64,000 nt of DNA, taken from contig WSXX01000004.1 in NCBI GenBank assembly GCA_009773515.1, positions 1 to 64,000 on the forward strand, written 5' to 3'. Origin of the DNA: Bacteroidota bacterium. Its GTDB lineage: Bacteria; Bacteroidota; Bacteroidia; Bacteroidales; Lentimicrobiaceae. A program made the position numbers and the translations under genes. The stretch's first letter is position 1. Every line of letters starts with the position of its first letter. Below are positions 12,401 to 41,181 of this stretch, in pieces. The notes below the pieces were generated by a model. It worked only from the letters and a program-made list of their open reading frames with translations. It had not been told where the DNA came from and ran no database searches.

Positions 12401-15400
12401 AGCTTTGCAAGTTCAATATCCATGCGGTTGGCATCGGGCCAGATTGCTCTGGAATTGGCTACTGAAGTGAACCATGGTGTGAATTCAACAGGAACTTCGT
12501 ACTCATAATAGTTTTCCGTAAAGTCAGAACCAATCCGGATGAATACCGTTACGTCTCCTTTTTCCAGTTCCTGAGTTTCAATTGATTTCTCAGCATGGAT
12601 GTACATTTTCAGGCGTTTGTATTGTCGGAAGTCAAAATCTGTTGTTTTGTAAGTTCCACGTGCATCGCCGTCGAGCAGGTTGCAGACTTTCAGAACCATG
12701 GCCTGTTCGTTAAGCCTCTGGTAATTGGTTGTTCCAACATTAATCTCACGTTCAATATCAGGAGGCAATACATATGGTATAGGTGAACGGCTTCCGTTTT
12801 CCTCAATACTGACTGTTGAAATGTCGAATGCTGTCTGGCTCTGATTCGGATCAGGAATATATTCGCCCGGAGTCAACAGGTTGCTGTAATATTTTCTCCA
12901 TTCTCCCCTTACCAGTTCAAGGGTTGCAAACCTGAGAACAACCTCTTCTTCAAAATCTTTGAGGAACATTCTTATAAAGCGGATGCTCTTGAAATCCTGA
13001 ATATTTCCAACTACCACATCGGGGCTTTGAACCGGTATTTTAAACTGATACCATTTTACTGTCCCTCTTTTTCCGTTTTCAAGCGGAATGTCTGAGGCGG
13101 TATAAATGTCGGTGATATAATTTTCGCCAACGTTCATTTTTTCAGGAACCAGATTAACTTTATACTGGAAATATCGTTCCTGTTCATTCAGGGTATTGTC
13201 GCGGTTGATATCTTCAACGTTAGGCAGGGTGGTTGCCTGGGTCTGGAACTCTTCATTTGACTGTTCAGTCGCCGGTGAGTTTCCTTCGGCACCATTGTAC
13301 ATTTTATAACGCTCTACGATGCTTCCGTATTTCGGATCTGCATCATAGTCTGCTCCCCGGAAGAAATGGTAATTGTCGGCCGATGGGTCGTTGAATGCAT
13401 TTAAATATGCTTCGGAAGCGGTGCTGTACTGATTTGCGATTACCTGCAGATAATTATCATTGAAGAAACTACGCTCATCTTCATCGCTAAGCCCGTCATA
13501 ACCAACATCCTGAAATGGCCTGGCTGCAATGTCATTGTCAAAAGCATTTACCAATGCCTGAAGCGTGGGTACTCTGCCCCAGATTGTGGTATCAACATTT
13601 TTGATTTCAGCCGAAGTCGGCAGTCCGTTTTCATAACTTTTGCGACCATCGCGTAAAATATCTTCCGAAACATCGCCAAGGTTGAAGTATAAATCTCCTC
13701 CTTTGTGGCTTTCCACTTCTGAGAATGGATCCATAAGCCAGAATTCGATATACTCAACATTTGCAGCTTCAAAGTCAGTGGACTCTATCCTTCTCATAAT
13801 ACCACCCCAGCGACTGCGAGGGAAGATAAGTGAACCGGTTTCGGAGAGCCCGCGCGATACTCCCGTTGGAAGAACATCAAAGTTGTAAGGACCTCTTTCT
13901 TCGGGGAAGAATGAAAGGTTGAGGATTGGCAGATTCATTGGCTGACCGTTTGGGGGGTCAGAGTTGGGGAATATTTCGCTTTCGCGGATCAGCCTTACCG
14001 AATTTCTGGAAAGCTCATCTTTCGAAATATTCTTTGGTCTGAGGTTGCTGTTCCGGTCATAAAACAGCGGATCAATGGTGTACCATGCAAGTTTGGCTCT
14101 GTTGAAGCCATAAGCAAGTCCTGTGCCCTGAGCTGCCTCAGGAAACATGTCTCTGCTGGTCTGGCCCTGAGGTGTACTTGCAAGAAACCATGTGCCTACA
14201 TTTTTCAGGTCAATCGATGATTTTGCGCCTTCAAAGTCATCGATATATGAAGTGCCGGTTTTTCCTACCGCTTTTGAATGGCCTGGGATAAAGTGTGCAA
14301 ATTCACCGTTAAACTGAATACGTGATGGAGTTTTGGTGCTGTAAAAAGGCAGTTTATCAATCAGGCGGGTCAGCATCATCGACTCGGTCTGGTAATTTAC
14401 ATTCATTCCCCATATGGTGTTCGATATGGGTTCCTGTCCAAAGTTGGTTTTCTGGGTGAGTGGCCTTTCGTGAAGGTTGAGAAGGGTAGCTCCGACAATA
14501 AGATCTTTATTTATTTTGTAGTCAACATTTACCCCCATCAACGTTTGGGTTTGCAGATTAAAGGTAGCATTGTTTTCAAGCGAAATGCTTACCGGTGTTC
14601 CTGAATTGAGGATGCCTTCGTTGATAATTTTAACCCGGCCAAGGGTGTAATCTACAGTATAGTCTACATTTTCGGTGAGCGGGATTCCTCCTGCTGTAAC
14701 CCTTACCGATCCCTGAGGAACGTTGAGTGCGTTAAGCGAAATCTCTGATCCTGCCGAAGATTTATATTGTCCTTCCAGCAGGTAGCGATTCTTGTCAGGA
14801 TATTGCTGGGCACCGCTTTTGGTAAGGGTATAAAGAGAGTCATAACAATATTTGTCGGCAAGTTCATTGTTGTTGAGCTTGTTTCTGAGGTAACTTCCGA
14901 ATGGTTCTCTTACGGTAAAGAATACACGGCCATTGGAAGATTGAATTGTACCTCCCTGTCGTGCTGCATTGTCGATATAGTCAAAAATACCATCGTAAGG
15001 CGGGTTTTGCTGAGGGTCAAGGTTGTCAAAATTAAATATCCGCAGCAATGGAACTCCTTTTATACCCTCCGGTCCTTCAGTAAAATATCCTGTAGGAACA
15101 GTATTTTCGTTTCCGGAATAAAGAATGTTCAGAATAAAATCTTCCCTGTTCAGCTGAAAAGCGCCAATATTATAAACGTTTTTCATCATCAGATTCCACA
15201 TTGGAATTTTGGTGTCCAGTGCAGTGCTTTTCAGAAGTTTTACCATAAGCGTTTGAGGCGAACTTATGCCCTCATCAGAAAATTCTCCAACCTGATATAT
15301 TTTATCCTGTCCGATTACAGTATATTGAAAAGCAACAGCAAGAACCTGATCTGGATTCAGCGTACTGTTCAGCGAAATAAAACCCATTTTTGAGTTGAAA

Positions 15401-16743
15401 GTGTATTCACTGGTATTAAGCCTGCGGGAATTTTCTACTTTCTCAAAGTCAGAACCTGATATGTACCCGAATGGAGAGCCTGTAAGGTATTGGGTTACCT
15501 CGTTGATATTCCGGATACGGGTAGTGTCGAATCGGGAAATCATGTCGTTTGAGGCATTATCAGGATAAGCTGTTGCACCTGGTGTTGGGCTTATTGTCTG
15601 ATTGTGTGGTAGTCTCTCGCCCAGATCCATCAAAGCAACCAGGTTGCGGTTTTCGGTAACTGCCGGGCCAATATTTGTAATCCAGACTTCAATCTTTGTA
15701 ATATTTATATTCGAATTGATAATGGGCAGTTTGCTGAGCGCATTGTCGTAATTATCAACAAAATACTGTGACAGAAAGAAATGCCGGTTCTCTTCGTAAT
15801 CGAGTGCCCTTACACTGAATTTGCTGGTTTGAGCACCACCCTGAACGGTAATGGTAGAAGTTTCGCTTTTTTGTTGAGAAAACACTCCGGTTACAAGCGC
15901 TTTACCAAACTGCAGCTGGGTTTTTAACCCGAAAAGACTCTGGCTTCCGGTGATAAGTGTGCTGTTGAGCGGGAAAGTAACATCTCCGGCTTCTATCAGT
16001 TTAATGATTTCATCCTCTTTGCCTTCGTATTTGAGTTTGAGTTTATTTTCAAAATCGAAGGTAGCTTCTGTGTTGTAATTGGTGTTAAACTCAATTTTAT
16101 CTCCGATTTTGGCCATTACACTCATTTGAATGCGTTGCTGAAAATCGAAATTGGTGGTTTTACGTTGTCTTATATCAAGTGAAGGATCATCACGCCGGTT
16201 TGACAATACACCGAAAGTAACTTCAGCACTTCCCTGGGGGCGGATGTCAATTGTGTTTCCTCCGAAAATCCGGTCAAAAACTTCACCGCCGATGTGAATC
16301 TGAGGAATAATTCCAGTGCGCGAGGTAGCAGGCCCGCTTACTGATTTTTCGCGCCAGAAATTATCAAGTGAACGGTCTAGATCCAGTTCTTTATATTCTT
16401 CGAAATTCAGTGAAGTTGGAGTAGATATTGGAACCTCACCGGCTTTGCGAATGTAATTATAGGTATTGGTTGCAGGATCGTAAATAAAATCTTCGCTGAT
16501 ATTGGAAGGAGTGCCCAGAAAAAGTTTGTTTTTTTCTTCTGGCTGAAGGGTTGTACCCGGATCAGATTCGGGGATAGGGTAGGGAAGTGAAATTGCAGGT
16601 TTGGTGGTGTCAGGAGGCGGGATTGGCTCAGCCTCAGCCCCTTGCTCATACAATATCTCATTAGATGCCGGAATCCCCCATGAAATGGTGATTACCGACA
16701 AAAAAACAAACAACCTAAAAAAATGCTTTACTATTCGCTCCAA
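9499..16743 (-). CDS. sprA: Type IX secretion translocon SprA (Sov homologue)
   Basis: The protein is 2414 residues, matching the family's usual length of about 2400. A signal peptide (MERIVKHFFRLFVFLSVITISWG) is followed by a Pro-rich stretch and long beta-rich sequence with recognisable SprA wording: RIFGGNTIDIRPQGSAEVTFG, KTQLQFGKALVTGVFSQQKS, IDDFEGAKSSIDL and WVNELRLTDFDE. A Pro/Gly/Gln-rich segment with a charged tail (about residues 1910-1960) is probably a loop. Family knowledge: SprA forms a very large 36-strand outer-membrane barrel through which folded type IX cargo passes. The surface protein at the start of the window is a plausible client. It is preceded by ruvA (119-bp gap), and both read leftward. 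The gene is intact, with no frameshift seen. Confidence 0.97.
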   Translation of the reverse strand: MERIVKHFFRLFVFLSVITISWGIPASNEILYEQGAEAEPIPPPDTTKPAISLPYPIPESDPGTTLQPEEKNKLFLGTPSNISEDFIYDPATNTYNYIRKAGEVPISTPTSLNFEEYKELDLDRSLDNFWREKSVSGPATSRTGIIPQIHIGGEVFDRIFGGNTIDIRPQGSAEVTFGVLSNRRDDPSLDIRQRKTTNFDFQQRIQMSVMAKIGDKIEFNTNYNTEATFDFENKLKLKYEGKEDEIIKLIEAGDVTFPLNSTLITGSQSLFGLKTQLQFGKALVTGVFSQQKSETSTITVQGGAQTSKFSVRALDYEENRHFFLSQYFVDNYDNALSKLPIINSNINITKIEVWITNIGPAVTENRNLVALMDLGERLPHNQTISPTPGATAYPDNASNDMISRFDTTRIRNINEVTQYLTGSPFGYISGSDFEKVENSRRLNTSEYTFNSKMGFISLNSTLNPDQVLAVAFQYTVIGQDKIYQVGEFSDEGISSPQTLMVKLLKSTALDTKIPMWNLMMKNVYNIGAFQLNREDFILNILYSGNENTVPTGYFTEGPEGIKGVPLLRIFNFDNLDPQQNPPYDGIFDYIDNAARQGGTIQSSNGRVFFTVREPFGSYLRNKLNNNELADKYCYDSLYTLTKSGAQQYPDKNRYLLEGQYKSSAGSEISLNALNVPQGSVRVTAGGIPLTENVDYTVDYTLGRVKIINEGILNSGTPVSISLENNATFNLQTQTLMGVNVDYKINKDLIVGATLLNLHERPLTQKTNFGQEPISNTIWGMNVNYQTESMMLTRLIDKLPFYSTKTPSRIQFNGEFAHFIPGHSKAVGKTGTSYIDDFEGAKSSIDLKNVGTWFLASTPQGQTSRDMFPEAAQGTGLAYGFNRAKLAWYTIDPLFYDRNSNLRPKNISKDELSRNSVRLIRESEIFPNSDPPNGQPMNLPILNLSFFPEERGPYNFDVLPTGVSRGLSETGSLIFPRSRWGGIMRRIESTDFEAANVEYIEFWLMDPFSEVESHKGGDLYFNLGDVSEDILRDGRKSYENGLPTSAEIKNVDTTIWGRVPTLQALVNAFDNDIAARPFQDVGYDGLSDEDERSFFNDNYLQVIANQYSTASEAYLNAFNDPSADNYHFFRGADYDADPKYGSIVERYKMYNGAEGNSPATEQSNEEFQTQATTLPNVEDINRDNTLNEQERYFQYKVNLVPEKMNVGENYITDIYTASDIPLENGKRGTVKWYQFKIPVQSPDVVVGNIQDFKSIRFIRMFLKDFEEEVVLRFATLELVRGEWRKYYSNLLTPGEYIPDPNQSQTAFDISTVSIEENGSRSPIPYVLPPDIEREINVGTTNYQRLNEQAMVLKVCNLLDGDARGTYKTTDFDFRQYKRLKMYIHAEKSIETQELEKGDVTVFIRIGSDFTENYYEYEVPVEFTPWFTSVANSRAIWPDANRMDIELAKLVSAKQQRNDVMGKPGSMVSVFTPYEVFDGENKITVVGMPSLSDIKAFMIGVRNPKKQYITDNDDGDNKCAEIWVNELRLTDFDETSGFAATARMAANLADLGNVVVSGSYSTPGFGSIEKKVGERSQEAVSQFDVATNIQLGKFFPEKAGIKIPMHIDYSEMRMTPKYNPLDPDILFKDVINDLNKSEKDSVRNKVQDLTRRTNINFVNMRKEKVGAQGKNRIYSIENFDFTYAYSEIYHKNVDLEYDSRKQYRGGVGYNFIYNPKPVKPFQNVKFLQKKSLAIVKDFNFFYMPKMFAFRTDMNRQYNERLLRNKSDALIILEPTYTKTWDWNRLFDLKYDIAQSLKLEYNANANAYVTEPPGRISRTDDGYQAKRDSIWDEVLNFGSMNRFTQNMNLNYIVPINKIPILNWINLNARYASTFRWEASPRSIQAIMGNTIENSNTININGNARLTNLYNKSGFLRKLTQPARGQTPPRQGPGGRMAPQEKEEPKDPLSDTTQVEKKSPQIAKILGIGVVKLIIGFKDLQFNYTESNGTLLPGFMPQPDILGNRLNGMAPGLGFAFGSQRDIRDDAERNGWITSNTLLNTAYVTRLTKNLTARATYEPFPEFRIELTADKTESFGHQEYFKADSTGNFTKSSKQDRGSFSMSFFTLKTAFQKDGDENISPVFEDFKEYRSIIAARLAAINPNTGSIDSTGFPGGYSATSQDVLIPAFIAAYTGNDPMKTSLSPFPKIPMPNWRFSYAGLSKLEFFKKYLKQLTISHSYRSTYSVGNYISNVDFLENLGFPAGFDAAGNFIPQNRIEIITITEQFSPLINLDITWNNSLLSRIEVRKSRSLSLSFVNNQVTEVSGNEFIVGMGYRFKDVKLNMSSGGRKQQLKSDLNVKLDLSVRENKTILRRLDEEINQISTGNRIISINSSADYMINQRFNLRLFFDKTITNPFVSSQFPNSTTNAGLTLRFTLAQ

Positions 16744-27012: not shown

Positions 27013-28077
27013 TTAGAATGTGAACTTTTCGGCAGTTATTCCAAAACAGAATATGGTTTTACTATTGAATACCTCACCTTGCTTGAGAACGGTCGAAGGA
27101 AAATGCGGCTGATTCGGAGAGTCAGGAAAGTGCTGTGTTTCTAGGGCTACGCCCATGTATTTGCCATATTTTAAGCCTTCATGTCCTGTGACTTCGGGAA
27201 TGTAAAACCCTGTATATAATTGCAGCGAAGGCTCATCTGTGAATATTTCCAGATACCGGCCACTTTCTTCTTCCTGAAGCAGGGCTACCTTAGTGATTAC
27301 TCCTTTGCTGGTTCCCAGTGCGTAGCTGTTGTCATAACCATAGGGCAGGGAGTCTATATCGCGTCCGATGGATTTGCTTTTGCTGAAATCATACGCTGTA
27401 TCTGAGATATCAAGAAATTTACCTGTTGGAATCAGCTCTTTCGTTTCAAGCATTCGTTGACTGAAAATGGTGAGCTTGTGCCCGGTAATTGGTTTGCGGC
27501 AGCCCGAAAGGTTAAAATAGGTGTGATTGGCAAGGTTGAGAACAGTTGCCTGATCGGTAATGGCACCAATTTCAATTGAAAGTTCGTTGCTGTTACTGAG
27601 TTTGTAGATAACGGTAACCGACAGATTGCCCGGGTATCCTTCTTCGAGGTGCGGGCTGGTATATTTCAGTTCAACGCTTTCAAATCCTTCTCCTGAAATT
27701 AGTTTTCCCTTCCAGATTTTCTTGTCAAATCCATTGATGCCACCGTGAAGTGCATTGCCGAGGTTGTTTGTGGCAAGTTTATATTTTTTACCGTCAATGG
27801 AAAACTCTCCATTTGCAATCCGGTTGGCATACCGGCCGGCAATGGCTCCAAAATACGGGCAATTGTTGGTGTAATCATCGTTCAGGTAGCCTTCGGCTGA
27901 ATCAAAACCCAATGCAATTTCACCGGAAACACCATGTTTATCCGGTGTTTGAATGGAGGTAATGATGGCGCCATAGTTTGAGATGCATATCTTAATGCCG
28001 TTCTCATTGGTGAGTGTATAGAGGTCGATTTCGTTGCCCGATGGATCAATGCCCCATTTTGTGATGTGTTGTTTCAT
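27013..28077 (-). CDS. galM: Aldose 1-epimerase
   Basis: The protein is 354 residues. Typical motifs: GRYANRIANGEF, NNLGNALHGGINGFDKKIW, the catalytic His in NLANHTYFNLSG, and the catalytic Glu in GVALETQHFPDSPN (about residue 313). It speeds interconversion of alpha and beta anomers of glucose or related sugars. No signal peptide is visible, so it is probably cytoplasmic. It is last in the minus-strand sugar operon, where it could equilibrate glucose anomers released by cellobiose phosphorolysis. Confidence 0.95.
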   Translation of the reverse strand: MKQHITKWGIDPSGNEIDLYTLTNENGIKICISNYGAIITSIQTPDKHGVSGEIALGFDSAEGYLNDDYTNNCPYFGAIAGRYANRIANGEFSIDGKKYKLATNNLGNALHGGINGFDKKIWKGKLISGEGFESVELKYTSPHLEEGYPGNLSVTVIYKLSNSNELSIEIGAITDQATVLNLANHTYFNLSGCRKPITGHKLTIFSQRMLETKELIPTGKFLDISDTAYDFSKSKSIGRDIDSLPYGYDNSYALGTSKGVITKVALLQEEESGRYLEIFTDEPSLQLYTGFYIPEVTGHEGLKYGKYMGVALETQHFPDSPNQPHFPSTVLKQGEVFNSKTIFCFGITAEKFTF

Positions 28078-28148: not shown

Positions 28149-29078
28149 TTATCTGACACCTTTAACCTTCATTTTCAGGCTGTAAAGGTATTGTGAAGCG
28201 GTGATAAAAAGTGTATTCATATCTGTACCTCCAAAGCAAACATTGGCTGTCCATCCGGCATCGACTTTAATATGTTCGATTTGTATGCCCTGATCATTAA
28301 ATACCGTAACACCTTTCCCTGTCAGATAAATATTGCCTTTTTGGTCGATGGTCATTCCATCTGAACCGAGTTCTGCAAAAAGCTTTTTGTTTTTCAGGCT
28401 TCCATCTCGCTGAATGTCATACGCATAAGTTTTGTTCGCGCCAATATCGGCAACATATAATTTTTTGCCATCCGGTGTGCCGATAATGCCATTTGGTTTC
28501 ACAAGATCATCGGCAACCCGGCTCAGGGTTTTTCTATCGGGTGAAAGAAAATACACGTGTTCGCCGTCCTGCTCCATCTCTGAACTACGCAGCCAGTAAG
28601 GGCGCACATAAAGCGGATCGGTAAAATAGATGCCGCCATCAGGACGCACCCACAGGTCATTCGGGCCATTTAGTGTTTTGTCATTGTAATTTAAAACAAG
28701 AATTGTGTGGCTGGTGTCAGCGATCGTGATGCTCCACAACTGATTGTCCATATCGGCGCATGCAAGAAGATTTCCGTTCAGGTCGAAGTAAAGCCCGTTT
28801 GCTCTGCCGGAGTTTTCGAGAAAGGTTTCCAGCTTTCCTTCGGTTGTCCAGATGTGGATTTTATTGTTGGGCTGATCGGTAAAATAAACATTTCCTTTGC
28901 TGTCAACCGCCGGGCCTTCGGTAAAAGCAAATCCATCTGCAAGTTTAACCACCTTTTCTCCAGGGGCTATCAGTTTTGGACTTTTCTGAGAAAAACCCTG
29001 GCTAACAAAAGTCAGACAATACAGAAAGATAAATATCAACAACTGCGCTGAACGAATTTTTGATGTCATCTTCTCCAT
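28149..29078 (-). CDS. SMP-30/gluconolactonase-like exported protein
   Basis: The protein is 309 residues with a signal peptide ending near GFSQ. The six-bladed propeller wording is clear: LADGFAFTEGPAVDSKGNVYFTDQPNNKI, SGRANGLYFDLNGNLLACADMDNQL, LNGPNDLWVRPDGGIYFTDP, VKPNGIIGTPDGKKLYVADIG and GSDGMTIDQKGNIYLT. Conserved acidic and Asn residues in these loops bind a divalent metal and the lactone in characterised relatives. A periplasmic sugar lactonase is the usual annotation, but the substrate is unknown. It lies 53 bp after the GH3 gene. It hints that an aldonolactone may also be handled by this locus. Confidence 0.88.
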   Translation of the reverse strand: MEKMTSKIRSAQLLIFIFLYCLTFVSQGFSQKSPKLIAPGEKVVKLADGFAFTEGPAVDSKGNVYFTDQPNNKIHIWTTEGKLETFLENSGRANGLYFDLNGNLLACADMDNQLWSITIADTSHTILVLNYNDKTLNGPNDLWVRPDGGIYFTDPLYVRPYWLRSSEMEQDGEHVYFLSPDRKTLSRVADDLVKPNGIIGTPDGKKLYVADIGANKTYAYDIQRDGSLKNKKLFAELGSDGMTIDQKGNIYLTGKGVTVFNDQGIQIEHIKVDAGWTANVCFGGTDMNTLFITASQYLYSLKMKVKGVR

Positions 29079-29131: not shown

Positions 29132-31393
29132 TCACCATTCAATTGTGCCTTTCAGGGGCAGGTTATTTGATGCTGAACCTGTCGAAATTTCAAACAATCC
29201 GGGTTCAAGAACCCACTTCAGTTTTTCCGGATGGTAAAAACTAAAAGCCGATTCATCAAGTTCGATATTTACTTTGGCTGATTCTCCCGGATTAAGCGTT
29301 ACCTTTTCAAAACCTTTAAGTTCCTTCACCGGGCGGTCAACCGAGCTTTGTTTTTGATGAACATAAACCTGGGCAACCTCGGCACCAGTGCGTTTCCCGG
29401 TATTGGTAACAGTACATTGTACAATTACCTTGTTATCTTTTTTGGTTAACTTCAGGTCAGAAAAACCGAATGTTGTGTATGAAAGTCCATAGCCAAACGG
29501 AAACACTACTTCTTTATTTTTTGAATCGAAATACCTGTAGCCCACATAAATATCTTCGGTGTACTTAACTGTATTTTTCCCTGGAAATTCACCAACTGAG
29601 TGCGAGGGATAATCCAGATGTGAATTTGCAAATGTCATGGGTAGTTTACCGGAAGGATTCACCTCGCCAAAAAGTATTTGTGCTACGGCAGTACCACCTT
29701 CCATTCCGGGGTACCAGGCATGAAGATAAGCCCGTGTCTCAGGCAACCAGTTGTTCATCTCCACATTACTGCCTCCCCAAAGCACTACTGCTGTATTTTT
29801 ATTCACCTTGGTGATTTCCTGGATCAGTTTTTCCTGGCCAAACAACAGTTTCAGGTTCAGTTTGTCACGTGCCTCGGCGTCGTATGTGCCTTCGCCCCAT
29901 GGCATGCCATCGTGGCCATGAATCCAGCCACCAACAAAAATTACAGCATCAGCACTTTTGGCAATTTCAATAGCTTCCTGCAAGAGTTTGGCATTGGCTG
30001 TTTTTGCCAGGTCTGTACTTTTCTTGTTGTCTCTCGACTGTGAGGCTACCTCACTGGTATAACTTCTGAAAAGACTTTCATCATAATAGGGTTCATAACC
30101 TTCAGCAAAAATGATTTCGACATGGTCACCAACCAGTTTCTGAATACCTTCAAACGGTGTGATCTCATACAATGGCTTCACCTGAGAGCTTCCGCCTCTT
30201 TCAGCAAATTTACGTTTAGCATTATGGCCAATGATAGCAAGGGTTTTAATTTCTTTTTTATCAAACGGCAAAAGACCATCGTTTTTAAGCAGGACAATAC
30301 CTTCCTGAGCCACTTTTAAGGCCAGTTGCTGATGTTCCGGCACATTTCTTTTGCCCGGAGCATGATTTCCAAGTGCGGTTGTGCGAAACATCAGTCTCAA
30401 AACACGTTTTACTTTTTCGTCCACCACGCTTTCATCGATATCACCGTCTTCAATCATTTTTTTCGCATGTTTTGCAAGATAAAAATCATCGTAATCAGGA
30501 TTGCTGAACGACTTAAGCAGCTCTGTACCCATTTCTATGTCAGTTCCATTAAGCAGCGCTTCACGGGTGTCCTTCACTGAACCCCAGTCGCTGATGACAA
30601 CGCCGTCAAATCCCCAATCGCCTTTGAGCACAACATTGTTGAGGTATTCGTGATGGGTTGTGTACTGACCGTTGACTTTGTTGTAGGCGCCCATTACACT
30701 CCAAACATTGGCTTCCTGAACTGCCGCTTTAAAGGCAGGGAAATAGATTTCATTCAAAGCCCTTTTGCTTATTATTACATCAATATTATGGCGGTCGGTT
30801 TCCTGATTGTTTGCAGCATAATGTTTAACACATGAGGCAACGCCCTGTTCCTGAACGCCCTTTATATAACCAACTGCCATTGCGGCAGCATGAAAGGGGT
30901 CTTCGCTCAGGTATTCAAAATTTCGTCCGTTGAGTGGACTTCTGATGATGTTGACTCCAGGCCCGAGAATTATATTTTTACCCCTCTCCTTGGCTTCATT
31001 GCCTAAAACAACACCATATTCATAGCCCAGATTTTTGTTCCATGTTGAGGCCAGACAAATCCCAACGGGCAGGTAAGTGGCTTTGTCATCAGCATTTTCA
31101 AGCGCAAACCAGCCACGACCATGCTCATGACGCACGCCATGAGGGCCATCGGACATGACCAGTTCCGGAATACCAAGTCTGGATACGCCCCCTGAAGTGA
31201 AAGACGAACTTGCATGGATCAGACTGAGTTTTTCATCCAATGTCATCTTTGAAAGCAATTCTTTCACTTTTGTGTTTATAGGGTCTTCGGTTTTGTTGTT
31301 TGCTGTTTGTTTGAACCCGGTTGCTGATACAATCAACAATACAAGAAATAAAATGGCCGGGAATTTAGGGTTTTTCTGAAAAACAGTTAACAT
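29132..31393 (-). CDS. GH3 beta-glucosidase-type glycoside hydrolase
   Basis: The protein is 753 residues. The N terminus is hydrophobic (FPAILFLVLLIVSATGF) and probably an export signal. The GH3 N-terminal barrel contains VMSDGPHGVRHE, KHYAANNQETDRHNID and the nucleophile motif VVISDWGSVKD (Asp near residue 266). The GH3 C-terminal domain has EGIVLLKNDGLLPF, and a fibronectin-III-like domain ends the protein (VTNTGKRTGAEVAQVYV, LKGFEKV). It most likely removes terminal beta-glucosyl units from oligosaccharides in the periplasm. It follows the cellobiose phosphorylase gene by 3 bp. GH3 also includes beta-xylosidases; the neighbour argues for glucosidase. Confidence 0.93.
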   Translation of the reverse strand: MLTVFQKNPKFPAILFLVLLIVSATGFKQTANNKTEDPINTKVKELLSKMTLDEKLSLIHASSSFTSGGVSRLGIPELVMSDGPHGVRHEHGRGWFALENADDKATYLPVGICLASTWNKNLGYEYGVVLGNEAKERGKNIILGPGVNIIRSPLNGRNFEYLSEDPFHAAAMAVGYIKGVQEQGVASCVKHYAANNQETDRHNIDVIISKRALNEIYFPAFKAAVQEANVWSVMGAYNKVNGQYTTHHEYLNNVVLKGDWGFDGVVISDWGSVKDTREALLNGTDIEMGTELLKSFSNPDYDDFYLAKHAKKMIEDGDIDESVVDEKVKRVLRLMFRTTALGNHAPGKRNVPEHQQLALKVAQEGIVLLKNDGLLPFDKKEIKTLAIIGHNAKRKFAERGGSSQVKPLYEITPFEGIQKLVGDHVEIIFAEGYEPYYDESLFRSYTSEVASQSRDNKKSTDLAKTANAKLLQEAIEIAKSADAVIFVGGWIHGHDGMPWGEGTYDAEARDKLNLKLLFGQEKLIQEITKVNKNTAVVLWGGSNVEMNNWLPETRAYLHAWYPGMEGGTAVAQILFGEVNPSGKLPMTFANSHLDYPSHSVGEFPGKNTVKYTEDIYVGYRYFDSKNKEVVFPFGYGLSYTTFGFSDLKLTKKDNKVIVQCTVTNTGKRTGAEVAQVYVHQKQSSVDRPVKELKGFEKVTLNPGESAKVNIELDESAFSFYHPEKLKWVLEPGLFEISTGSASNNLPLKGTIEW

Positions 31394-31396
31394 GAG

Positions 31397-33820
31397 TTAT
31401 TTATTTAAGGTGACAAGAACATTGTAAATTTCCCCCTTTGACTTGCATGGCAGGGGTCCTTCCCATTTTTGTCCGTTCACAAAACAGTTTTGTTTTGAGC
31501 CTCCGACTTTTTGAACCTTTATGTGATAAGTATTCCCTCTGAATTTTCTGGTGACATTCAATTCCTTTATTTCTGATGGAAGGCATGGGTCAACGATTAA
31601 TCCTTCGTAATCAGGACGAATTCCCAGAATATACTGACTTATGGCATACAAATTCCAGGCAGCAGTGCCGGTAAGCCATGAGTTTTTTGCTTCACCGGGT
31701 TTTACAGCATCTTTTCCGGCTATCATCTGCGAATATACGTAAGGTTCGGTTTTATGCAGCTCGCTGATGTTTTCCAGATAAGCCGGAGTGATTCTTTTGT
31801 AATAATCAAAGGCTTTGTCGTTGTGTCCCAGCATGGTTTCTGCAATGATTATCCAAGGGTTGTTGTGGCAGAAAATACCTGCATTTTCTTTATAACCGGG
31901 AGGATAGGTGCTGATTTCTCCAAGATTAAGCTGATATCTGGTGTAAGCCGGATTAAGAAGAACGATTCCGTAAGGCGTCGCCAGCCGTTCCTCAACGCTT
32001 TTCAGCGCTTTTTCAGCCCTGCCATCCTCAGTTCCAACGCCAGCCATCACACAAAAACCCTGTGATTCAATAAAAATCTGGCCTTCCTCGTTTTCTTTGC
32101 TTCCAACCTTATTTCCATAGAAATCGTAAGCCCTCAGAAACCAATCTCCATCCCAGCCTGAAGAATCGATGGCTGCTCTCATTTTTTCAATCTGAATCTG
32201 GGCTTCTATGGATTCTTCTATTCGACCTGTCAATTCACAAATGCGTACAAATTCTTCACCATAAAGAATAAACATGCCGGCAATCATCACCGATTCTGCG
32301 GTGCGTCCAATCTGATTGTTGGTGGTTTGAAATGATTCACCCGGCTTATCTGAAAAGCAATTGAGGTTGAGACAGTCGTTCCAGTCGGCACGGCCAATAA
32401 GCGGAAGATTATGAGGGCCAAGGTTATTTACAACATGGTAAAACGAACGTTTTATGTGCTCAAAAATGGTGGCACCCTCTCCCTGATTGTCGAATGGAGC
32501 CAAGGCATCGAGCAGCGTCCAGTCGCCGGTTTCCTTGATATATGCAGAAACTGAGAGTATCAGCCAAAGGGGATCGTCGTTAAAATTGCCGCCAATTTCG
32601 TGGTTTCCTCTTTTGGTGAGGGGTTGGTATTGATGATATGCACTTCCATCGCTGAGTTGTGTGCTTGCCAGATCAATAATCCGCTGACGGGCCCATTCAG
32701 GATTCATATGAACCATTCCTATTATATCCTGATTCGAGTCGCGAAAGCCCATGCCCCGACCAATGCCCGATTCGAAATATGAAGTACTTCTGGAAAAGAA
32801 ATAAGTAACCATGCACTGGTACTGATTCCAGATATTCACCATGCGATCAAGCTTTTCATCACCCGAACTGATGTTCAGTTTTCCCAACAGTTCGTCATAA
32901 AATTTATTCAGATTCCTGAGTGCTTCATCCACCTGCTCCGAAGTTTTGAACAGGTTGATCATGTGATGGGCTTTGGTTTTGTTGATTACGTTGGGTTCAA
33001 TAAATTTCTCATCCTCTTTGTTTTCGACATAACCAAGTACAAAAACGAACTCTTTTTCTTCACCTGCTTCCAGTTCCATCTCAATAAAATGCGAAGCTAC
33101 CGGCGACCAGCCATGAGCGATTGAATTGCCGCTTTTTCCATTGCTTACCATTTCAGGATTGTCAAATCCGTTGTAAATGCCCAGAAAAGTCTCGCGATCG
33201 GTGTCAAATCCACTGATTTCAGCATTTACCGAGTAGAAAGAGAAGTGATTACGGCGCTCCCGGTATTCGGTTTTGTGATAAATGCAGGAGTCCTCTACTT
33301 CAACTTCTCCGGTGTTGAAGTTGCGCTGGAAATTGGTAGTATCGTCCAGCGCATCCCACAAAGCCCATTCGGCAAAAGAGTGCAGTTTGACAGTCTTTTT
33401 TTCAGAACTTTTGTTCTTCAGCTTCACACGAATAACTTCCCCATCAAATTCGATCGGCACAAAGTACAATACTTCAGCTTCCAGCAGGTTTAATTCACTT
33501 TTAATAACGGAATATCCTAATCCATGACGACATTCATACTTCTCCAGCTCAGTTTTAACGGGTTTCCAGCCGGGTGACCATATTTTACCGCCATCGTTTA
33601 TGTAGAAATATTTACCGCCATCATCAACCGGCACATTGTTGTACCTGATACGGGTGATTCTGCGTAAACGCGCATCTTTGTAAAAACTATATCCTCCTCC
33701 GGTATTGGACATAATGCTGAAAAATCCACCGGTTCCCATGTAATTGATCCATGGGTAAGGCGTTTTCGGGTTAGTAATTACATATTCCCTGTTGCTGTCA
33801 TCAAAGTGTCCGAATCTCAT
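31397..33820 (-). CDS. Cellobiose phosphorylase (GH94)
   Basis: The protein is 807 residues, the usual length of cellobiose phosphorylases, with no signal peptide, so it is cytoplasmic. The N terminus is very like characterised cellobiose phosphorylases: [34 protein letters not shown] and [17 protein letters not shown]. The general acid Asp lies in [12 protein letters not shown] (near residue 480), and the later QFxGGR-type region is represented by [12 protein letters not shown]. The reaction is cellobiose plus phosphate to alpha-glucose 1-phosphate plus glucose, saving one ATP compared with hydrolysis. The identification as the cellobiose rather than chitobiose or cellodextrin enzyme rests on my memory of family sequences. 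Confidence 0.92.
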
Positions 33821-33863: not shown

Positions 33864-35468
33864 TTATTCATTGTTTCTGCGGTTAGTCAATTCCACTGTA
33901 ATTTCATCCATTTTCGATTGTGTCAACGGATAAAGTGTCATAAGCCCGGCTGCAAGCAATGCGATGATAGCCGGCACCCAACTCATTAGCATCTTAATTC
34001 CTGGGATTGCCCCCTGAATTGCTGCGTTATCTTGTCCGTCATAATGAAATGCACCCAGCATCAGGCCAATAATTGCGCCGGCAATTCCACCGCCAAACTT
34101 AGTGGCAAATGATCCGGCTGAGTAAATAAGGCCGGTTGCCCGACGGTTGTTTTTAAACTCTGAATAGTCTGCTGCATCGCCTAACATTGCAAAAAACAGG
34201 GTAGGAAATATGGCCGATGCAAATTCAGAAATCATGCCCAGTGCGAAAATCGGGTAGATATCAGAAGGGCTGCAGAAAAACAGCAGCGAATTTACTACCG
34301 CCGAAAAAATCAGGGCGTAGATAAAAAGATTGCGTTTTCCGAACTTTTTTCCAAGCATGCCTGTAATCATTGCTCCGGCAATGGACGCCAGCATCAGCCC
34401 GACTAGATATGAGCCTGCCAGAAGCTGATCATTCAGGTAATGAGAGAAATAGATTACTACAATTCCCTGTTTAATTGAATTGTAAACATTAAACAAAAGT
34501 CCGATTACCAATAAAACCAACCAGGGCTTATTGCTTATCAGATCCTTTAAATCCTGCCTTAAATTGGTTTTCTGGTTTTTGGGAGGTTGCACCCTTTCGC
34601 GGGTTGTGTAAAATGTGATGAACATAAACAGCGAAAGAAAGGCTGCCATTATGTATATGGAATTGCTGTAACCTCGCTTCTGATCAATAATGGATATTTT
34701 TTCTGCCACAATATCCTTTTCACCTTCCACCAGAAAAACATAATTTGAATCGGCTTTCATCGAAAAGCTTACCGAATTTGACGGTTCTTGTGTTGCCTGG
34801 CTCCCGGCATGATCCATCCATGAAAAAAGCGCAACACCATCTTTTGTTTTAATGTTTACATTCTCCACATCTTCCGATACTGATACCGTAACCAGATACC
34901 TGTCGCCATTTAGTTCATTTATGCGGACTTCAGGATTTACATTGCCAAAATGAGCCACCAGAAACAACAGCGCGCCCTGAACAATCATCCCTCCGGCGAA
35001 AGCTCCTACCATGCGGTACGATCCAAGTATGGTTCTTTCTTTGTCATCGCCGGTAATAACTGCCATTAGTGCGCCATAGGGGATGTTGTTGGCCGTGTAA
35101 ATGAGGGTAAACAGAATGTAGGTAACGTAAGCGTAGATTATTTTGCCGGTTGTGGATAAGTCAGGAGTGGTGAACAGCAGCGACAAAACAATGCCCAGCG
35201 GAATTGCGGTCCATAAAATCCATGGGCGGAATTTTCCGTACCGGGTATTTGTGCGATCGCCGATCACGCCCATCGCAATATCACTTATTCCATCGCTGAA
35301 ACGGGCAACCAGCATCAATAAACCAACCGCAACCGGGCTAATTCCAAAAACATCGGTATAGAAAACAAAAAGAAAAGTAGCCACACCCCGCCATGCAATA
35401 TTTGCTGCACCATCGCCTAAAGCGTATCCAATTTTCTCTTTGAAAGTAATTTTGCTGGAGTCGGCCAT
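33864..35468 (-). CDS. GPH-family sugar:cation symporter (MFS) with an inserted soluble domain
   Basis: The protein is 534 residues, against about 450 for ordinary GPH-family symporters. The N-terminal half has KIGYALGDGAANIAWR, the conserved DGISDIAMGVIGDRTNTRYGKFRPW motif and NNIPYGALMAVITGD. The C-terminal half has AMLGDAADYSEFKNNRRATGLIYSAGSFATKFGGGI. Between about residues 172 and 262 there is an extra polar, beta-rich stretch (FGNVNPEVRINELNGDRYLVTV to EKISIIDQKRGYSNS) in place of a short loop. The likely substrate is cellobiose or glucose, because the next genes are cellobiose phosphorylase and beta-glucosidase. It follows the Nudix regulator by 48 bp. Confidence 0.9.
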   Translation of the reverse strand: MADSSKITFKEKIGYALGDGAANIAWRGVATFLFVFYTDVFGISPVAVGLLMLVARFSDGISDIAMGVIGDRTNTRYGKFRPWILWTAIPLGIVLSLLFTTPDLSTTGKIIYAYVTYILFTLIYTANNIPYGALMAVITGDDKERTILGSYRMVGAFAGGMIVQGALLFLVAHFGNVNPEVRINELNGDRYLVTVSVSEDVENVNIKTKDGVALFSWMDHAGSQATQEPSNSVSFSMKADSNYVFLVEGEKDIVAEKISIIDQKRGYSNSIYIMAAFLSLFMFITFYTTRERVQPPKNQKTNLRQDLKDLISNKPWLVLLVIGLLFNVYNSIKQGIVVIYFSHYLNDQLLAGSYLVGLMLASIAGAMITGMLGKKFGKRNLFIYALIFSAVVNSLLFFCSPSDIYPIFALGMISEFASAIFPTLFFAMLGDAADYSEFKNNRRATGLIYSAGSFATKFGGGIAGAIIGLMLGAFHYDGQDNAAIQGAIPGIKMLMSWVPAIIALLAAGLMTLYPLTQSKMDEITVELTNRRNNE

Positions 35469-35516: not shown

Positions 35517-36251
35517 TTAATAGGATAGGATCAGTTTGTCCTTTTTTGTTCTTTCATAAACATCTTTGCTGAAAATGAAAACCTGAGCTGCACGGTGTGC
35601 CACTCCTTTTTGCTTTTCATTCAGCGGAATCACAAATTTCATCTGTGCTACTTTTTTGCTGAAATTTCTACGGTCGATTTTAGTGCCTAAAATAACTTCG
35701 TAGAGGCTTTGCATTTCGCTGAGGGTAAATTTTTCAGGAAGAAGTTCAAATCCGATGGGTTCATGACGAAGTTTATTCCTCAGGAAATCCAGCGCCATCG
35801 ATATCATTTTTGCATGATCGAAGCCAAGTTCAGGAAGTTCGTCAATCGGAAACCAAACGGTATCCTGATGTGATGTATCGGGCATTAAAACCGAGCTGTC
35901 AACCAAGGAGCAGTAACCAACAGAGATAACATGATCAGATACCATAGGATATTTTTTCTTAATCCATAATTGGTCCCTCTCATTTAGAACACGGTCGGTT
36001 TCACCAAAAGTATAGAACTGTTCAAGAAATATATTCTCAAAACCGGTCTTGTCTTTTAGTACGCGAGAAGCAGCATCGTTGATATTTTCTCCTTTATAAA
36101 CGTGATGCCCCTGCACGGTATAATCGGTAAAAACCACCTCGGCGGTTTCAGAATCTTTTAATTCGCGCTTGGTGAGAAGCACATTTAAAGTTTTGTTGCT
36201 GAATCCGAAGATCACGCAATCTACCGAGAGATTATTAATAAACGCGTCCAT
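35517..36251 (-). CDS. NrtR/AraR-like Nudix-fold transcriptional regulator with degenerate Nudix box
   Basis: The protein is 244 residues. The N-terminal Nudix fold (about 5-150) has VDCVIFGFSNKTLNVLLTKR and GHHVYKGENINDAASRVLKDKTGF. The C-terminal region (about 165-244) is a winged helix: FTLSEMQSLYEVILGTKIDRRNFSKKVAQMKFV. In active Nudix enzymes the box is G-x5-E-x7-RExxEE-x-G. Here the REVQEE-type core reads RVLKDK, so hydrolase activity is unlikely and the fold is probably a ligand sensor. Relatives include NrtR (ADP-ribose) and AraR of Bacteroides (arabinose). It heads the sugar operon and is divergent from susC, with matching operator-like sites at both promoters. Confidence 0.9.
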   Translation of the reverse strand: MDAFINNLSVDCVIFGFSNKTLNVLLTKRELKDSETAEVVFTDYTVQGHHVYKGENINDAASRVLKDKTGFENIFLEQFYTFGETDRVLNERDQLWIKKKYPMVSDHVISVGYCSLVDSSVLMPDTSHQDTVWFPIDELPELGFDHAKMISMALDFLRNKLRHEPIGFELLPEKFTLSEMQSLYEVILGTKIDRRNFSKKVAQMKFVIPLNEKQKGVAHRAAQVFIFSKDVYERTKKDKLILSY

Positions 36252-36262
36252 AAAATTAGTTA

Positions 36263-36315
36263 TGTGTAAAAAATACGCAATGCAAATTTATATACTTTTA
36301 TTTAGAAAATACAAA
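36263..36315 (-). promoter_or_regulatory. Promoter and operator-like site of the Nudix regulator operon
   Basis: On the minus strand TTTG (36315-36312) and TAAATTTG (36290-36283) are 21 bp apart. The site TGCGTA-N5-TACACA occupies 36279-36263, starting 3 bp past the -7 element and so covering the expected transcription start. Its halves are inverted repeats with one mismatch in six. The same arrangement occurs at the susC promoter. Confidence 0.65.
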
Positions 36316-36425
36316 AGTACAAAAAAAAAGGTGTTTTCAGAAGTAAAGTAAAGAGACTGAAAAACAATTACTTAAAAATTGAATAATTTAGAATGGATAT
36401 AAATAGCATAAAATATTTGCATAAG

Positions 36426-36476
36426 TTTGTTTTTAACAAATTTTATGTATTTTTGCCATTGTGTACATTATACATT
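36426..36476 (+). promoter_or_regulatory. Promoter and operator-like site of susCD
   Basis: TTTG (36426-36429) and TATTTTTG (36448-36455) are 18 bp apart, a good Bacteroidota promoter. The site TGTGTA-N5-TACATT lies at 36460-36476, 4 bp past the -7 element. With flanks, both sites share the order TTTGC(C)ATTGYGTA-N5-TACAYW. A repressor bound here would block initiation. Confidence 0.68.
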
Positions 36477-36498
36477 AACTAAAAACCGAGGGTCATTT

Positions 36499-39400
36499 AT
36501 GAAATCAGATGTTTACAGTTTACTAAAGCTGAACACCCGCGCAAAAAAGGCAATCCTCATGGCAGGACTGTTTTTTCTTAGTGTTACTTTAACATTAACT
36601 GCTCAGGAGGTGAATAAATTCAGCGGTGTAGTTCAGAGCGAAAGCGGAGAACCTATGCCAGGAGTCAATGTTTTGGAAATTGGTACTTCCAATGGTACTG
36701 TTTCAGAAATTGACGGAACTTTCCGGATAAGTTCAGCCAAAGGAAAAGTGGTTCTTTCCTTTTCTATGGTTGGATTTGAAACTATTGAAAAAGAATTAAA
36801 GCCTGATTCGAAAGAAATTATTGTATTAAAAGAAAGCGTTTTCGGGCTTAGCGAGGTTCTTGTTGTCGGTTATGGCAGTCAGAAAAGATCAAACATTACA
36901 GGTTCTATTGCAAAATTAAGCAACAAAGAGCTGGCTCAACTTCCTACAACAACTGTAAACGAAGCAATACAGGGACGTATTGCCGGTGTAAATGTTACCA
37001 GCACTTCGGGTTCGCCTGGTGCGGGACAGAAAGTAGTTATCCGTGGTGTAGCTACCAACACAAATGTTCAACCTCTTTATGTGGTTGATGGTATGGCAAC
37101 CGGTAATATCGACAATCTGGAACCAAATGATGTTGAATCAGTTACCGTACTTAAAGATGCTGCATCTGCTGCAATTTATGGTGCTGAAGCTGCCAATGGA
37201 GTAATTCTTATCACAACCAAAAGCGGCGCCAAAGGCCCCGGTAAAGTTGAATATACCATGCAGCTTGGTTCTCAAAGTGTAGGCTCATACACCCAGCCAA
37301 TGGATGCTGAGAGTTATGCAACCTGGATTAACGAAGCCAATGTAGGCGTTGAGATTCCAGCCAGTTCCGATATAAATACAAATTGGATGGATGAAACCCT
37401 CAACTCAGCAATGCTGCAGAGGCATCACCTTGCATTTAGTGGTGCAACCGATAAAGGCAATTATTATGTTTCCGGCTCATATACCAGTCAGAACGGAGTA
37501 ATTGGTGGTGATAAATCGCATTTTGAGCGTTTCTCTATGCGTGCCAACGTTACCCAGCAGGTTAAGCCATGGGTAAAAGTAGGAACAAACCTTACTTACA
37601 ACCACAGTCAGAGAAATTCAATTGTTGAAGATGATGAATTTGGTGGCATCGTTGCATCTGCCTTGATGCTTGACCCATTAACTCCTGTCTTTTATAGTGG
37701 CGATCTTCCTGAGTTTGCTCAAACTGCGCTGAATGGCGGCAATACCTTGCTTCGCAATTCAGATGGATTCTATTATGGTTTATCTCCTTATGTGAAAGGT
37801 GAAATTGCCAATCCGCTTGCTATGATTGAGCTTGCAAAAGGCGGCGTGAAAGAAGACAAGTTTATGGGTAATATGTATGTTACACTTGGTGACGAATCCT
37901 GGAAAGGTTTCAAATTTACTACCCGCGCCAGTGCCGACATTAACAACCAGTCGTATCATACCTGGTTCCCGACTTATTGGTTCTCATCTGAAAGGTTAAA
38001 CGCTCAGGCCAATGTCAGAGATAATACCAACGCATGGTTTACCTGGATGTGGGAAAATTATATTTCCTATGACAAGTCATTTGGTAAACATAATGTGAGT
38101 GCAGTTGCAGGTATTTCAGCCAAACAATACACCCACAAGTTTCTAAACACCCAGTCAGGTCCTATGTTTGCCGAAGATGACAACTTTGCACAGCATGGCG
38201 GAGTAGAAATTGATGGTAAAGTCAGTGGCAACCTGCTCGATACCCGCACATCATCCTATTTTGGTCGTGCTTCTTATGAATATGACAGCAAATACCTTCT
38301 GAGCGCAATCATTCGTCGCGATGGTACTTCTTTGTTGCATCCTGACCAGAGATGGGGAAATTTCCCTTCAGTTTCTGCAGGATGGATTGTTTCACGCGAA
38401 GATTTCTGGAGTATTGCAATGGTTGACTTCTTCAAAGTCAGAGCATCATGGGGAACCAACGGAAACCTTTCCGGTTTGGGTCCTGACCAGTTCCGCTCAC
38501 TTATTACTGCTTCCGGAATTCAATATCCTATGCCAGGCGGCGGTTTTTATACCGGTGCTGAGCCTGAACTACTTGCCAATCCTGAACTTACCTGGGCAAC
38601 CAGCGAACAGATGGATTTAGGAATTGATTTGCAAATGTTTGGTTCCAAACTTACCGTTGGAATGGATTATTTCAATAAAGTTACCCGCGATCTTCTTGTG
38701 CCGGGTACTCCTCCTTCTTCTGTTGGAAATAAAGCTCCTTTTGTTAATGCCGGTGATGTTACCAATAAAGGTTTTGAACTTGAACTTGGATACAGAAACT
38801 ACGGCAAAAAGCTTACTTATGATATTAGCTCCAACTTCACATGGATGAGCAATGAGGTTACCTTCCTCAATCCTTTGCTCGACAGGGTTAGCGGTACATC
38901 AGTAGGAACCGGCTGGACAGCAACTTATCTTGAGCTGAACAACCCGGTGTGGTTCTTCCGTGGATACGAAACCGATGGTATTTTCCAGAATCAGGCTGAA
39001 ATTGATGCTTATAAAGAAGCCAATGGCGGACTGGCCGGTTACAATCCGGTTCCGGGCGATCCTATCGTTGTCAACACAAATGGCGACAACCTTATCAACA
39101 ACGAAGACCAGACCAATATCGGAAGTCCTCATCCAACATTTATGTGGGGTGCAAATTTCAGCCTGGGTTATGCAGGATTTGATTTCAGAATGTTCCTTCA
39201 GGGCGTTCACGGACAGGATGTTTTATTGGGTTGGAACCGTTACGACCGTTCTACTTCTAACCGTCCACAGTTCTTCTTTGATGAAAGATGGACCGGCGAA
39301 GGCAGCACAAACGAAAGGCCAAGAGCTGAACAGTCTAGCCCATATATTTACAACAGCGACCTGATGATTTTCAAAGGTTCGTATGTAAGAATCAGGCAGA

Positions 39401-39612: not shown

Positions 39613-39663
39613 TGGTGATCGGTACGTTTAACAAACATTTAAGTGTCAACACTAAAAAGATAT

Positions 39664-41181
39664 ATGATGAAAAATCGAGTTAAAATTTTATTCACCCTGG
39701 CCATGATAACGCTGTTTTCGGGTTGCCAGAAAGATTTCCTGGAAGTTGATCCCATTGGAAAAATGTCTGTGGAATTATTCTACAAAACCGATGAGGATGC
39801 AACCAAAGCGATAATGGCCACTTACGACATTCTTCAGTGGATGAATGCCCGCGACTGGAACAGTGCTTACCTGGTGAAAACTTTCCCTTCTGATGAATCA
39901 AATGTTGGTGGCGGTGATGCCGGAGACCAGCCCCCTTATCAGGAACTCGGTGGGTTTACCTACGGACCAAGCAATGCGCCGATAACTGCTGTATGGCAAT
40001 CAAATTACTACGGAATCTACCGCGCCAATCTGGTCATAAACAATGTATTGCCCGAAACAGATCTGCGCAAACAGATTATTGCTGAAGCAAAATTCCTGCG
40101 TGCTTATTATTACTTCGAAATTGCCTCAATGTTTGGCAAAGGACCACTGATTCTTACTGAACTTGCGCCCAGTGAGTACAGCCAGCCTTTTGTTGAAGCT
40201 GATGCCATTTACGAACAGGTATTCACTGACCTGACAGAGGCCATTGCCGGACTTCCTTTGAAAAGTCAATATGCTTCAAATGATGTATTCAGGGCATCAA
40301 AAGGTGCTGCACAGGCTCTTCTTGGAAAAGCATATCTGTACGCCAAAAAGTATACGGAATCTGCTGCCGCTTTTGAAACAGTAATTCTTTCAACCGAGTA
40401 TGATCTTCAGGCTGATTATTCTTCATTATTCCTGAAAGAATCAGAATTTGGTATCGAATCACTTTTTGAAGTTTCATGGGTAACCACCCGCGGATATGAC
40501 TGGGGTACTTTCCAATGGGGAGGCAACAGAGCTATGGAAAACAACATTACATGGCAGCTTACAGGTCCTCGCGGCGATTACTTCCAGCCAGGTACAACTG
40601 GTTTGATTGGTGGTTGGGGTTTCAATTACCCGAAACAGCGCCTTTATGATGCATTTGTTGCTGCCGGCGACGATGTAAGAAAATCTGCTTCCGTGCTTTC
40701 GCTTGCAGATCTGAGAGCACTTGGCGGAGACTGGACCAATGAAAGTTCATGGGGATGGGACGGCTGTATCCGCGTAAAATATGGAACCAGAATGGACGAA
40801 ACCAATGGTGATGCCGGAGCTGTTGCTGAATTGAATTATGGCACCAACCTTCGCCTCATCCGCTTTGCCGATGTTCTGCTTATGGCTGCCGAGGCAAATC
40901 ATATGGCCGGCGAAGATGGTAAAGCAACCATTTACCTGAATAGGGTAAGGCAACGTGCTGGTCTTCCTCCTTTCTCAGGCGACATTATGACCGCCATAAA
41001 AAAAGAACGCGAACTCGAACTTTGTTTTGAAGGTGTTCGTTTCCTCGATCTCGTGCGCTGGGGCGATGCTCCTGCCGCTTTGGGTTCGTTGGGTTTCACT
41101 GCCGGAAAACATGAAGTATTCCCTATTCCACAGGATGAAATGAGGAATAATTCCAAAGCAACTCAAAACAATAATTATTAG
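39664..41181 (+). CDS. SusD/RagB-family nutrient-binding outer-membrane lipoprotein
   Basis: The protein is 505 residues from the ATG at 39664 (a second ATG follows at 39667; a GTG at 39643 is less likely). The lipobox LFSGC places a lipidated Cys near residue 21. SusD motifs: QKDFLEVDPIGKMS, an AEAKFLRAYYYFEI helix in the TPR-like core, GAAQALLGKAYLYAKKYTESAAAFETVI, and the C-terminal LIRFADVLLMAAEANH, YLNRVRQRAGLPP, and ERELELCFEGVRFLDLVRWG. It lids the SusC barrel and captures glycan at the surface. It follows susC by 51 bp. Confidence 0.95.
   Translation: MMKNRVKILFTLAMITLFSGCQKDFLEVDPIGKMSVELFYKTDEDATKAIMATYDILQWMNARDWNSAYLVKTFPSDESNVGGGDAGDQPPYQELGGFTYGPSNAPITAVWQSNYYGIYRANLVINNVLPETDLRKQIIAEAKFLRAYYYFEIASMFGKGPLILTELAPSEYSQPFVEADAIYEQVFTDLTEAIAGLPLKSQYASNDVFRASKGAAQALLGKAYLYAKKYTESAAAFETVILSTEYDLQADYSSLFLKESEFGIESLFEVSWVTTRGYDWGTFQWGGNRAMENNITWQLTGPRGDYFQPGTTGLIGGWGFNYPKQRLYDAFVAAGDDVRKSASVLSLADLRALGGDWTNESSWGWDGCIRVKYGTRMDETNGDAGAVAELNYGTNLRLIRFADVLLMAAEANHMAGEDGKATIYLNRVRQRAGLPPFSGDIMTAIKKERELELCFEGVRFLDLVRWGDAPAALGSLGFTAGKHEVFPIPQDEMRNNSKATQNNNY

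Follow-up and report, generated by a model that had tools for sequence, protein, structure and literature searches.

An AraR-type Nudix regulator predicted to repress its own operon and a divergent susCD pair at a cellobiose locus in the Bacteroidota

Our analysis of a cellobiose locus in a Bacteroidota genome makes it highly probable that an AraR-type Nudix repressor controls both its own operon and a divergent susCD pair, acting at a palindrome in each of the two promoters. In the mechanism that we propose, a regulator dimer would bind GTGT-N7-ACAC-like DNA with one winged helix per half-site and, once bound, would cover the start points of the two divergent promoters. In this way it would repress its own six-gene run (regulator, symporter, GH94 cellobiose phosphorylase, GH3, SMP-30-like protein, and mutarotase) together with susCD. 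An inducing sugar that enters the cell would bind to the dead Nudix domain, upon which the winged helices would rotate and the dimer would leave the DNA. Our best guess for this inducer is cellobiose, a choice that we hold with about even confidence, and glucose, the product of cellobiose, is the next candidate. We know of no Nudix-fold protein that senses a disaccharide.

The divergent locus and its regulator

The stretch of DNA that was analyzed, hereafter the window, consists of 64,000 nucleotides from a genome of 5.03 Mb in 67 contigs. Within it, a 247-bp gap (36252–36498) lies between six genes that run leftward at short distances from one another, predicted to share one transcript, and a rightward susC–susD pair. 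The genes are as follows.

27013..28077, minus strand: aldose 1-epimerase (GalM-like), by domain matches
28149..29078, minus strand: SMP-30/gluconolactonase-like protein, by a domain match
29132..31393, minus strand: GH3 glycosidase, beta-glucosidase-like, by domain matches
31397..33820, minus strand: GH94 protein, cellobiose phosphorylase by sequence (Pfam GH94; 1244 bits to 3qde)
33864..35468, minus strand: GPH/MFS_2 sugar:cation symporter, by domain matches
35517..36251, minus strand: AraR-type NrtR-family regulator of 244 aa, with a Nudix-like domain, a degenerate Nudix box, and an NrtR winged helix
36499..39612, plus strand: SusC-like TonB-dependent transporter (TIGR04056, 3e-232)
39643..41181, plus strand: SusD-like lipoprotein (Pfam SusD_RagB, 5.2e-29)

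For susC, we chose the ATG at 36499 as the start; the mechanical open reading frame begins at a TTG at 36427. A role for the GH94 protein as a chitobiose, laminaribiose, or cyclic-glucan enzyme was rejected, with scores of at most 453 bits (for chitobiose phosphorylase, the next kind) versus 1103 to 1244 bits for cellobiose phosphorylases, the 1103-bit row being a variant named lactose phosphorylase. No ECF sigma factor, anti-sigma factor, or hybrid two-component system was found among the scanned neighbors (20079, 22989, 24502, 26270, 41404, 43496, 45222, and 45754). Elsewhere in the window, a SprA_N protein of 2414 aa (9499–16743) and an HYR/CHU_C protein (50–3016) both point to type IX secretion.

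The regulator matches NrtR_WHD (PF21906; 2.1e-25, 89.1 bits versus a cut-off of 27), AraR_C (PF19368; 4.1e-10), and NUDIX (PF00293; 1.1e-7), and shows the layout of the NrtR family, with an N-terminal Nudix-like domain followed by a C-terminal NrtR winged helix. Its nearest solved relative is BtAraR of Bacteroides thetaiotaomicron (7.4e-40). An AlphaFold2 model built on an alignment of 55 sequences (mean pLDDT 92.1) has BtAraR 5bs6 as its top structure match (Z 23.3, 2.9 A over 212 residues, 39% identity), ahead of NrtR (Z 19.4), a Nudix-family protein (17.4), and NadQ (~16). An identity as an ADP-ribose/NAD NrtR was rejected, the score on NCBIfam NF050029 being 86.7 versus a cut-off of 400 bits, and gene linkage also speaks against it. 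Taken together, sequence and model identify the protein as an AraR-type member of the NrtR family.

The Nudix box, GHHVYKGENINDAASRVLKDKTGF, has lost its RE..EE core, and the catalytic signature is thus degenerate. Equivalents of the BtAraR residues R34, R86, H131, D178, R180, and N181 are kept in 23/23 GH94-linked rows (window included), the sugar-pocket residues R34, R86, and H131 being kept also in most other rows and therefore not specific to the GH94-linked ones. Two positions differ in these rows: that of F49 is H in all 23 and that of F36 is L in 20, the H not being diagnostic because it is common to a flavobacterial sister group and to some rows without GH94. In AraR, F36 and F49 help to surround C4 and C5 of arabinose, as described in PMC4666351. 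Since the replacements lie near these contacts, the pocket would, we infer, have room for a hexose ring. Among the DNA contacts, R180, N181, K184, and R205 are kept, with K179 replaced by R, R183 by S, and, in the wing, K204 by H, so that the set K179/R180/N181/K184/K204/R205 reported as conserved in AraR orthologs is not intact in the regulator. On a tree built from 93 regulators, 3 label changes account for the 23 GH94-linked rows, as against a shuffled mean of 20.7; L038 and L039 form a group with the window protein (100/89).

The palindromes and the motif across genomes

The elements between the two divergent genes, and one site just inside susC, are listed below.

36263..36279, minus strand: predicted operator 1, regulator side, TGCGTATTTTTTACACA; GCGT-N7-ACAC toward the regulator gene, which is GTGT-N7-ACGC on the plus strand
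36283..36315, minus strand: regulator-operon promoter, -33 TTTG, 21 bp, -7 TAAATTTG
36426..36455, plus strand: susC promoter, -33 TTTG, 18 bp, -7 TATTTTTG
36460..36476, plus strand: predicted operator 2, susC side, TGTGTACATTATACATT; GTGT-N7-ACAT
36581..36595, plus strand: possible intragenic third operator-like site, GTGT-N7-ACAT among the codons for the SusC signal peptide

A first-pass annotation of this DNA had described the palindromes as TGCGTA-N5-TACACA (36279–36263, minus) and TGTGTA-N5-TACATT (36460–36476, plus), which is exact in sequence and coordinates. The shared TTTGC(C)ATTG flank that it noted is present, and the 17-bp sites do lie 3 and 4 bp past the -7 elements. Each site has one mismatch to GTGT-N7-ACAC. 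Both promoters carry Bacteroidota-type -33/-7 elements. The GCGT/GTGT core begins 4 bp (regulator side) and 5 bp (susC side) past the -7 element, and hence, at the usual distance from that element to the start point, each site should cover the latter. Operator 1 lies 11 bp from the regulator ATG and overlaps the expected start site; operator 2 lies 22 bp from the susC ATG at 36499.

Within the genus, three of 19 genomes (G006, G012, and the window genome) have close orthologs of the regulator (68–70%), and these three alone have close orthologs of the cellobiose phosphorylase (77% or more). The only other GH94 matches in the genus, one in the window genome and one in G018, show 32–33% identity and lie inside open frames of ~2,900 aa. 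Both G006 and G012 have the regulator–symporter–GH94 order and the divergent susCD seen in the window. Past TAnnTTTG, the register is 4 bp on the regulator side and 5 bp on the susC side in all three genus members with the locus. The place and 4-bp register of operator 1 are the same in L038 (G012), L039 (G006), L050, L051, and L052, and the susC-side promoters of G012 and G006 carry an exact GTGT-N7-ACAC in the register of operator 2. The site at 36581–36595 (15.8 bits on the weight matrix described below) ranks third in the window, or second under the stricter motif from which the five closest relatives were removed, and has a counterpart in the same codons in G012 and, with two mismatches, in G006. 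It is possibly an intragenic auxiliary operator, for which the case is weak, or it may reflect coding constraint.

How far the motif accompanies the regulator was read from a set of loci made up of the best 80 of at least 571 confirmed relatives plus 12 loci (L038–L049), which came to 90 once the duplicates L066 and L079 were dropped. GH94 adjoins the regulator in 22 of these, which form the GH94-linked set; it is downstream on the same strand in 22/22, with a GPH symporter between the two in 16. We scanned 500 bp 5' of each regulator (less at the contig ends of L050, L051, and L060). An exact GTGT-N7-ACAC was found in 16/22 GH94-linked loci and a site with at most one mismatch in 21/22, the sole miss being L053, whose upstream region holds none at that threshold. 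The first-pass annotation had named as a finding against its reading that orthologous pairs should lack the motif in their upstream regions; it is there in these 21 loci, and G006 and G012 have it at both promoters. An exact site is present in 25 of the 68 loci that have no GH94, and one with at most one mismatch in 29.

Exact matches are concentrated at this spacing: in GH94-linked loci there are 20 at spacing 7, and the nine others in the range 3 to 12 give 0, 0, 0, 0, 0, 2, 1, 0, and 1. The contrast weakens once one mismatch is allowed, spacing 7 then having 36 matches (21 loci), spacing 5 having 29 (18 loci), and spacing 9 having 17 (10 loci), as against 1 to 6 for each of the rest; we think that the raised counts at 5 and 9 are shifted readings of TGTGT...ACACA sites. 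The sites are also concentrated upstream: 10,170 bp of upstream sequence in the 22 loci hold 20 exact sites versus 4 in the remaining 303,403 bp, and 36 versus 60 when one mismatch is allowed. Two-site arrangements occur in L055, L057, and L059 (~100 bp apart) and in L063 and L064 (~150 bp). On the regulator side, the distance from TAnnTTTG to the operator is 4 bp in L050, L051, and L052 and 3 bp in L040. Beyond the close clade, many sites lie further 5' (about -70 to -430) and have no TAnnTTTG directly before them, so the promoter geometry is a feature of the clade and not a general one.

Two side observations come from the same set. Six relatives from Verrucomicrobiota and Cyanobacteriota (L095, L108, L110, L121, L124, and L126), which are among the 11 of 93 whose Nudix box is intact as judged by a regular expression, have GTGT-N7-ACAC upstream, and these regulators are perhaps still enzymes. 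In two Marinilabiliaceae loci (L063:4698–5300 and L064:6678–7283), a second regulator, 33–34% identical, lies 5' of the GH94-linked one.

Pattern counts alone prove nothing, since they showed no enrichment over control. TGYGTA-N5-TACRYA with at most two mismatches matched 19 times in the 64-kb window versus 16.8 expected. The expected genome-wide enrichment did not appear either: a similar pattern with one mismatch gave 30 matches versus 69 for the reversed control, and exact W-GTGT-N7-ACAC-W gave 9 places versus 10. The sites were also judged with a symmetric weight matrix made from 33 sites in the loci of other genomes, the window being excluded. On this matrix, 36461 (susC side) ranks first in the window with 19.5 bits and 36264 (regulator side) second with 16.9 bits, where 0.0 and 0.1 sites, respectively, are expected per 64 kb. 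A stricter matrix of 25 sites, with the five closest relatives removed, ranks them 1 and 3 (18.5 and 15.0 bits), and none as good occurred in 640 kb of simulated sequence. Judged by a motif from other genomes, the window sites are thus more than chance. As for the nine exact palindromic sites in the genome, one lies at the promoter of a paralog of the regulator and two on C64 are targets of the paralog type. The others were taken as chance: one on C14 near CinA and glycosyltransferase genes (15.1 bits), C36:15610 (17.3 bits, 1.7–1.9 kb from the nearest suitably oriented open reading frames of at least 120 aa), C64:251900 (12.7 bits, 82 bp 5' of a gene whose product has a type IX sorting tail), and C36:178343, C39, and C48 (all below 12 bits). 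A weaker site, C24:69161 (15.5 bits), lies between tRNA synthetase and histidine kinase genes.

A paralog, its apparent targets, and rival readings

The genome encodes a second AraR-type protein, 49% identical to the window regulator. Its gene and the sites of its apparent targets are the following.

L033:8713-9462 (G000:C5:44715-45461): paralog, AraR-type regulator
L130:15845 and L132:516 (position of GTGT): paralog-type target sites, CTTAGTGT-N7-ACACAAAC-like

The paralog's promoter region has two exact sites. On the GH94-linked matrix, its promoter scores 21.0 and 13.1 bits, and the best sites at its apparent targets reach 20–25 bits. One putative target site is 5' of a gene for an MFS transporter, after which comes an endo-beta-1,2-glucanase-like gene (PF10091; 7.5e-147 to 5gzh), which we take to belong to GH144; another is 5' of a PKD–susC–susD–GH30 run. 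Across the genus, 10/13 readable upstream regions of glucanase loci have the motif (15 orthologs, G004 and G006 being left out because their contigs end too soon) and so do 10/12 of those of the PKD run (fragmentary matches in G004 and G002 left out). It is absent upstream of the glucanase in G003, G008, and G009 and upstream of the PKD run in G008 and G009. A good match to the paralog was found in 13/19 genus genomes and none in G003 (only 78% complete), G008, and G009, and all 11 genomes with a site 5' of the glucanase and/or the PKD run have the paralog, evidence that is strong but not independent given the near relatives G001, G005, and G013, whose sites are identical or nearly so, and a possible shared ancestry of the three genomes without the motif. 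This co-occurrence supports GTGT-N7-ACAC as the putative operator of the AraR-type family in the genus, and the paralog likely runs an undescribed beta-glucan regulon.

Since one matrix scores both sets of sites highly, cross-binding between the regulator and the paralog is possible. The palindromes might accordingly be operators of which the paralog is the repressor, or which it shares, with the cellobiose locus wired into the beta-glucan regulon. The GH94-linked motif does score the paralog's own promoter and apparent targets, and the paralog is present in each of the three genus members that carry the cellobiose locus. We nevertheless consider this unlikely, because flank position -3 is A in 14/18 half-sites of the 9 window-clade sites versus T in 38/44 half-sites of a hand-picked subset of 22 paralog-type sites. 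K179R and R183S/W in the recognition helix accompany this difference, though the window-clade flanks overlap the promoter. Moreover, outside the genus, GH94-linked operators adjoin the GH94-linked regulator in many loci. The first-pass annotation had likewise favored a single factor, most simply the adjacent Nudix-fold protein, and this choice has gained ground: the nearest relative of known structure is a GTGT-N7-ACAC-binding repressor, and the motif accompanies the regulator gene from genome to genome.

Autoregulated repression by that protein also fares better than a role as an activator, or as a looping factor that would join the two or three sites across 197 and 120 bp. Recurring two-site arrangements and the third, weaker site in susC would suit looping, but the distance between sites is not conserved among loci and their place just past the -7 element fits steric repression. 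In addition, L-arabinose is a negative effector of DNA binding by the closest characterized relative at induced operons, as reported in PMC4666351; altogether we regard activation or looping as improbable, even more so than control by the paralog. Hardly any weight attaches to palindromes that arose by chance or with the promoter and have no binding protein. Bare pattern counts are indeed at chance level in window and genome, but the sites are conserved across genomes despite diverged spacers, exact matches are concentrated at spacing 7, the close clade has a fixed register, and sites are strongly enriched at the regulator promoter.

If the preferred reading is right, a pair of palindromes read by hand becomes a predicted regulon with named operators. 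A bolder generalization, to which we give somewhat less than even credence, is that AraR-type Nudix repressors are general, overlooked beta-glucan regulators in Bacteroidota. A widespread cellobiose-sensing branch and a paralog serving both an endo-beta-1,2-glucanase locus and a GH30 PUL would then be kept apart within the same cell by small changes in the recognition helix and flanks around a shared GTGT-N7-ACAC core.

Comparison with known systems

Nudix control of a glycan/susCD locus, which the first-pass annotation had thought unusual in Bacteroidota, is not so in kind, because AraR (BT0354) and XylR (BT0791) are already known Nudix/NrtR regulators of sugar loci in this phylum, including susCD operons in the case of AraR, as PMC3878776 and PMC4666351 report. 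According to Table 2 of PMC4666351, the BtAraR–DNA crystal has GTGT-TACTTTT-ACAC on one strand, with protein contacts in both half-sites. The same source places AraR sites 5' of its own operon, usually two in tandem, and 5' of susCD operons.

The window regulator resembles BtAraR (5bs6, 5dd4, 5ddg, and 5deq) in domain layout, fold, and degenerate Nudix box, in the core sugar-contacting R34/R86/H131 and most DNA-contacting residues, in the core and spacing of the GTGT-N7-ACAC operator, and in the predicted control of its own operon and susCD. It differs in being linked to a cellobiose phosphorylase run and not to arabinose utilization genes, in its replacements (F49 to H and F36 to L; K179R, R183S, and K204H), and in having ~15 more residues past the R86 position. 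With BtXylR it shares the family and the role of a Bacteroidota sugar regulator (PMC3878776). A presumed XylR-type row, L118, assigned from its neighbors (an FGGY kinase and a xylose-isomerase-like TIM-barrel), falls in the same supported 60-row group of the tree, but on another branch, with L at the F49 position and linkage to xylose genes. NrtR of NAD metabolism (Shewanella oneidensis, 3gz5/3gz6; Z 19.4) and NadQ (7q91–7q94; Z ~16) have the same fold and Nudix–wHTH architecture, but their ligands are of the ADP-ribose or NAD type and their genes those of NAD metabolism.

The literature search, at the level of titles and opening lines, found no cellobiose-linked NrtR/Nudix regulator. The mechanism itself is known, and holds nothing at odds with prior knowledge; what is new, as far as our searches reach, is the cellobiose-phosphorylase-linked branch and its same-genus paralog. 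Our reading would take Nudix-type sugar sensing beyond the pentoses, in the direction of a beta-glucan disaccharide pathway. The locus and paralog also offer a clean test case of what keeps paralogous repressors apart when they have a core operator in common.
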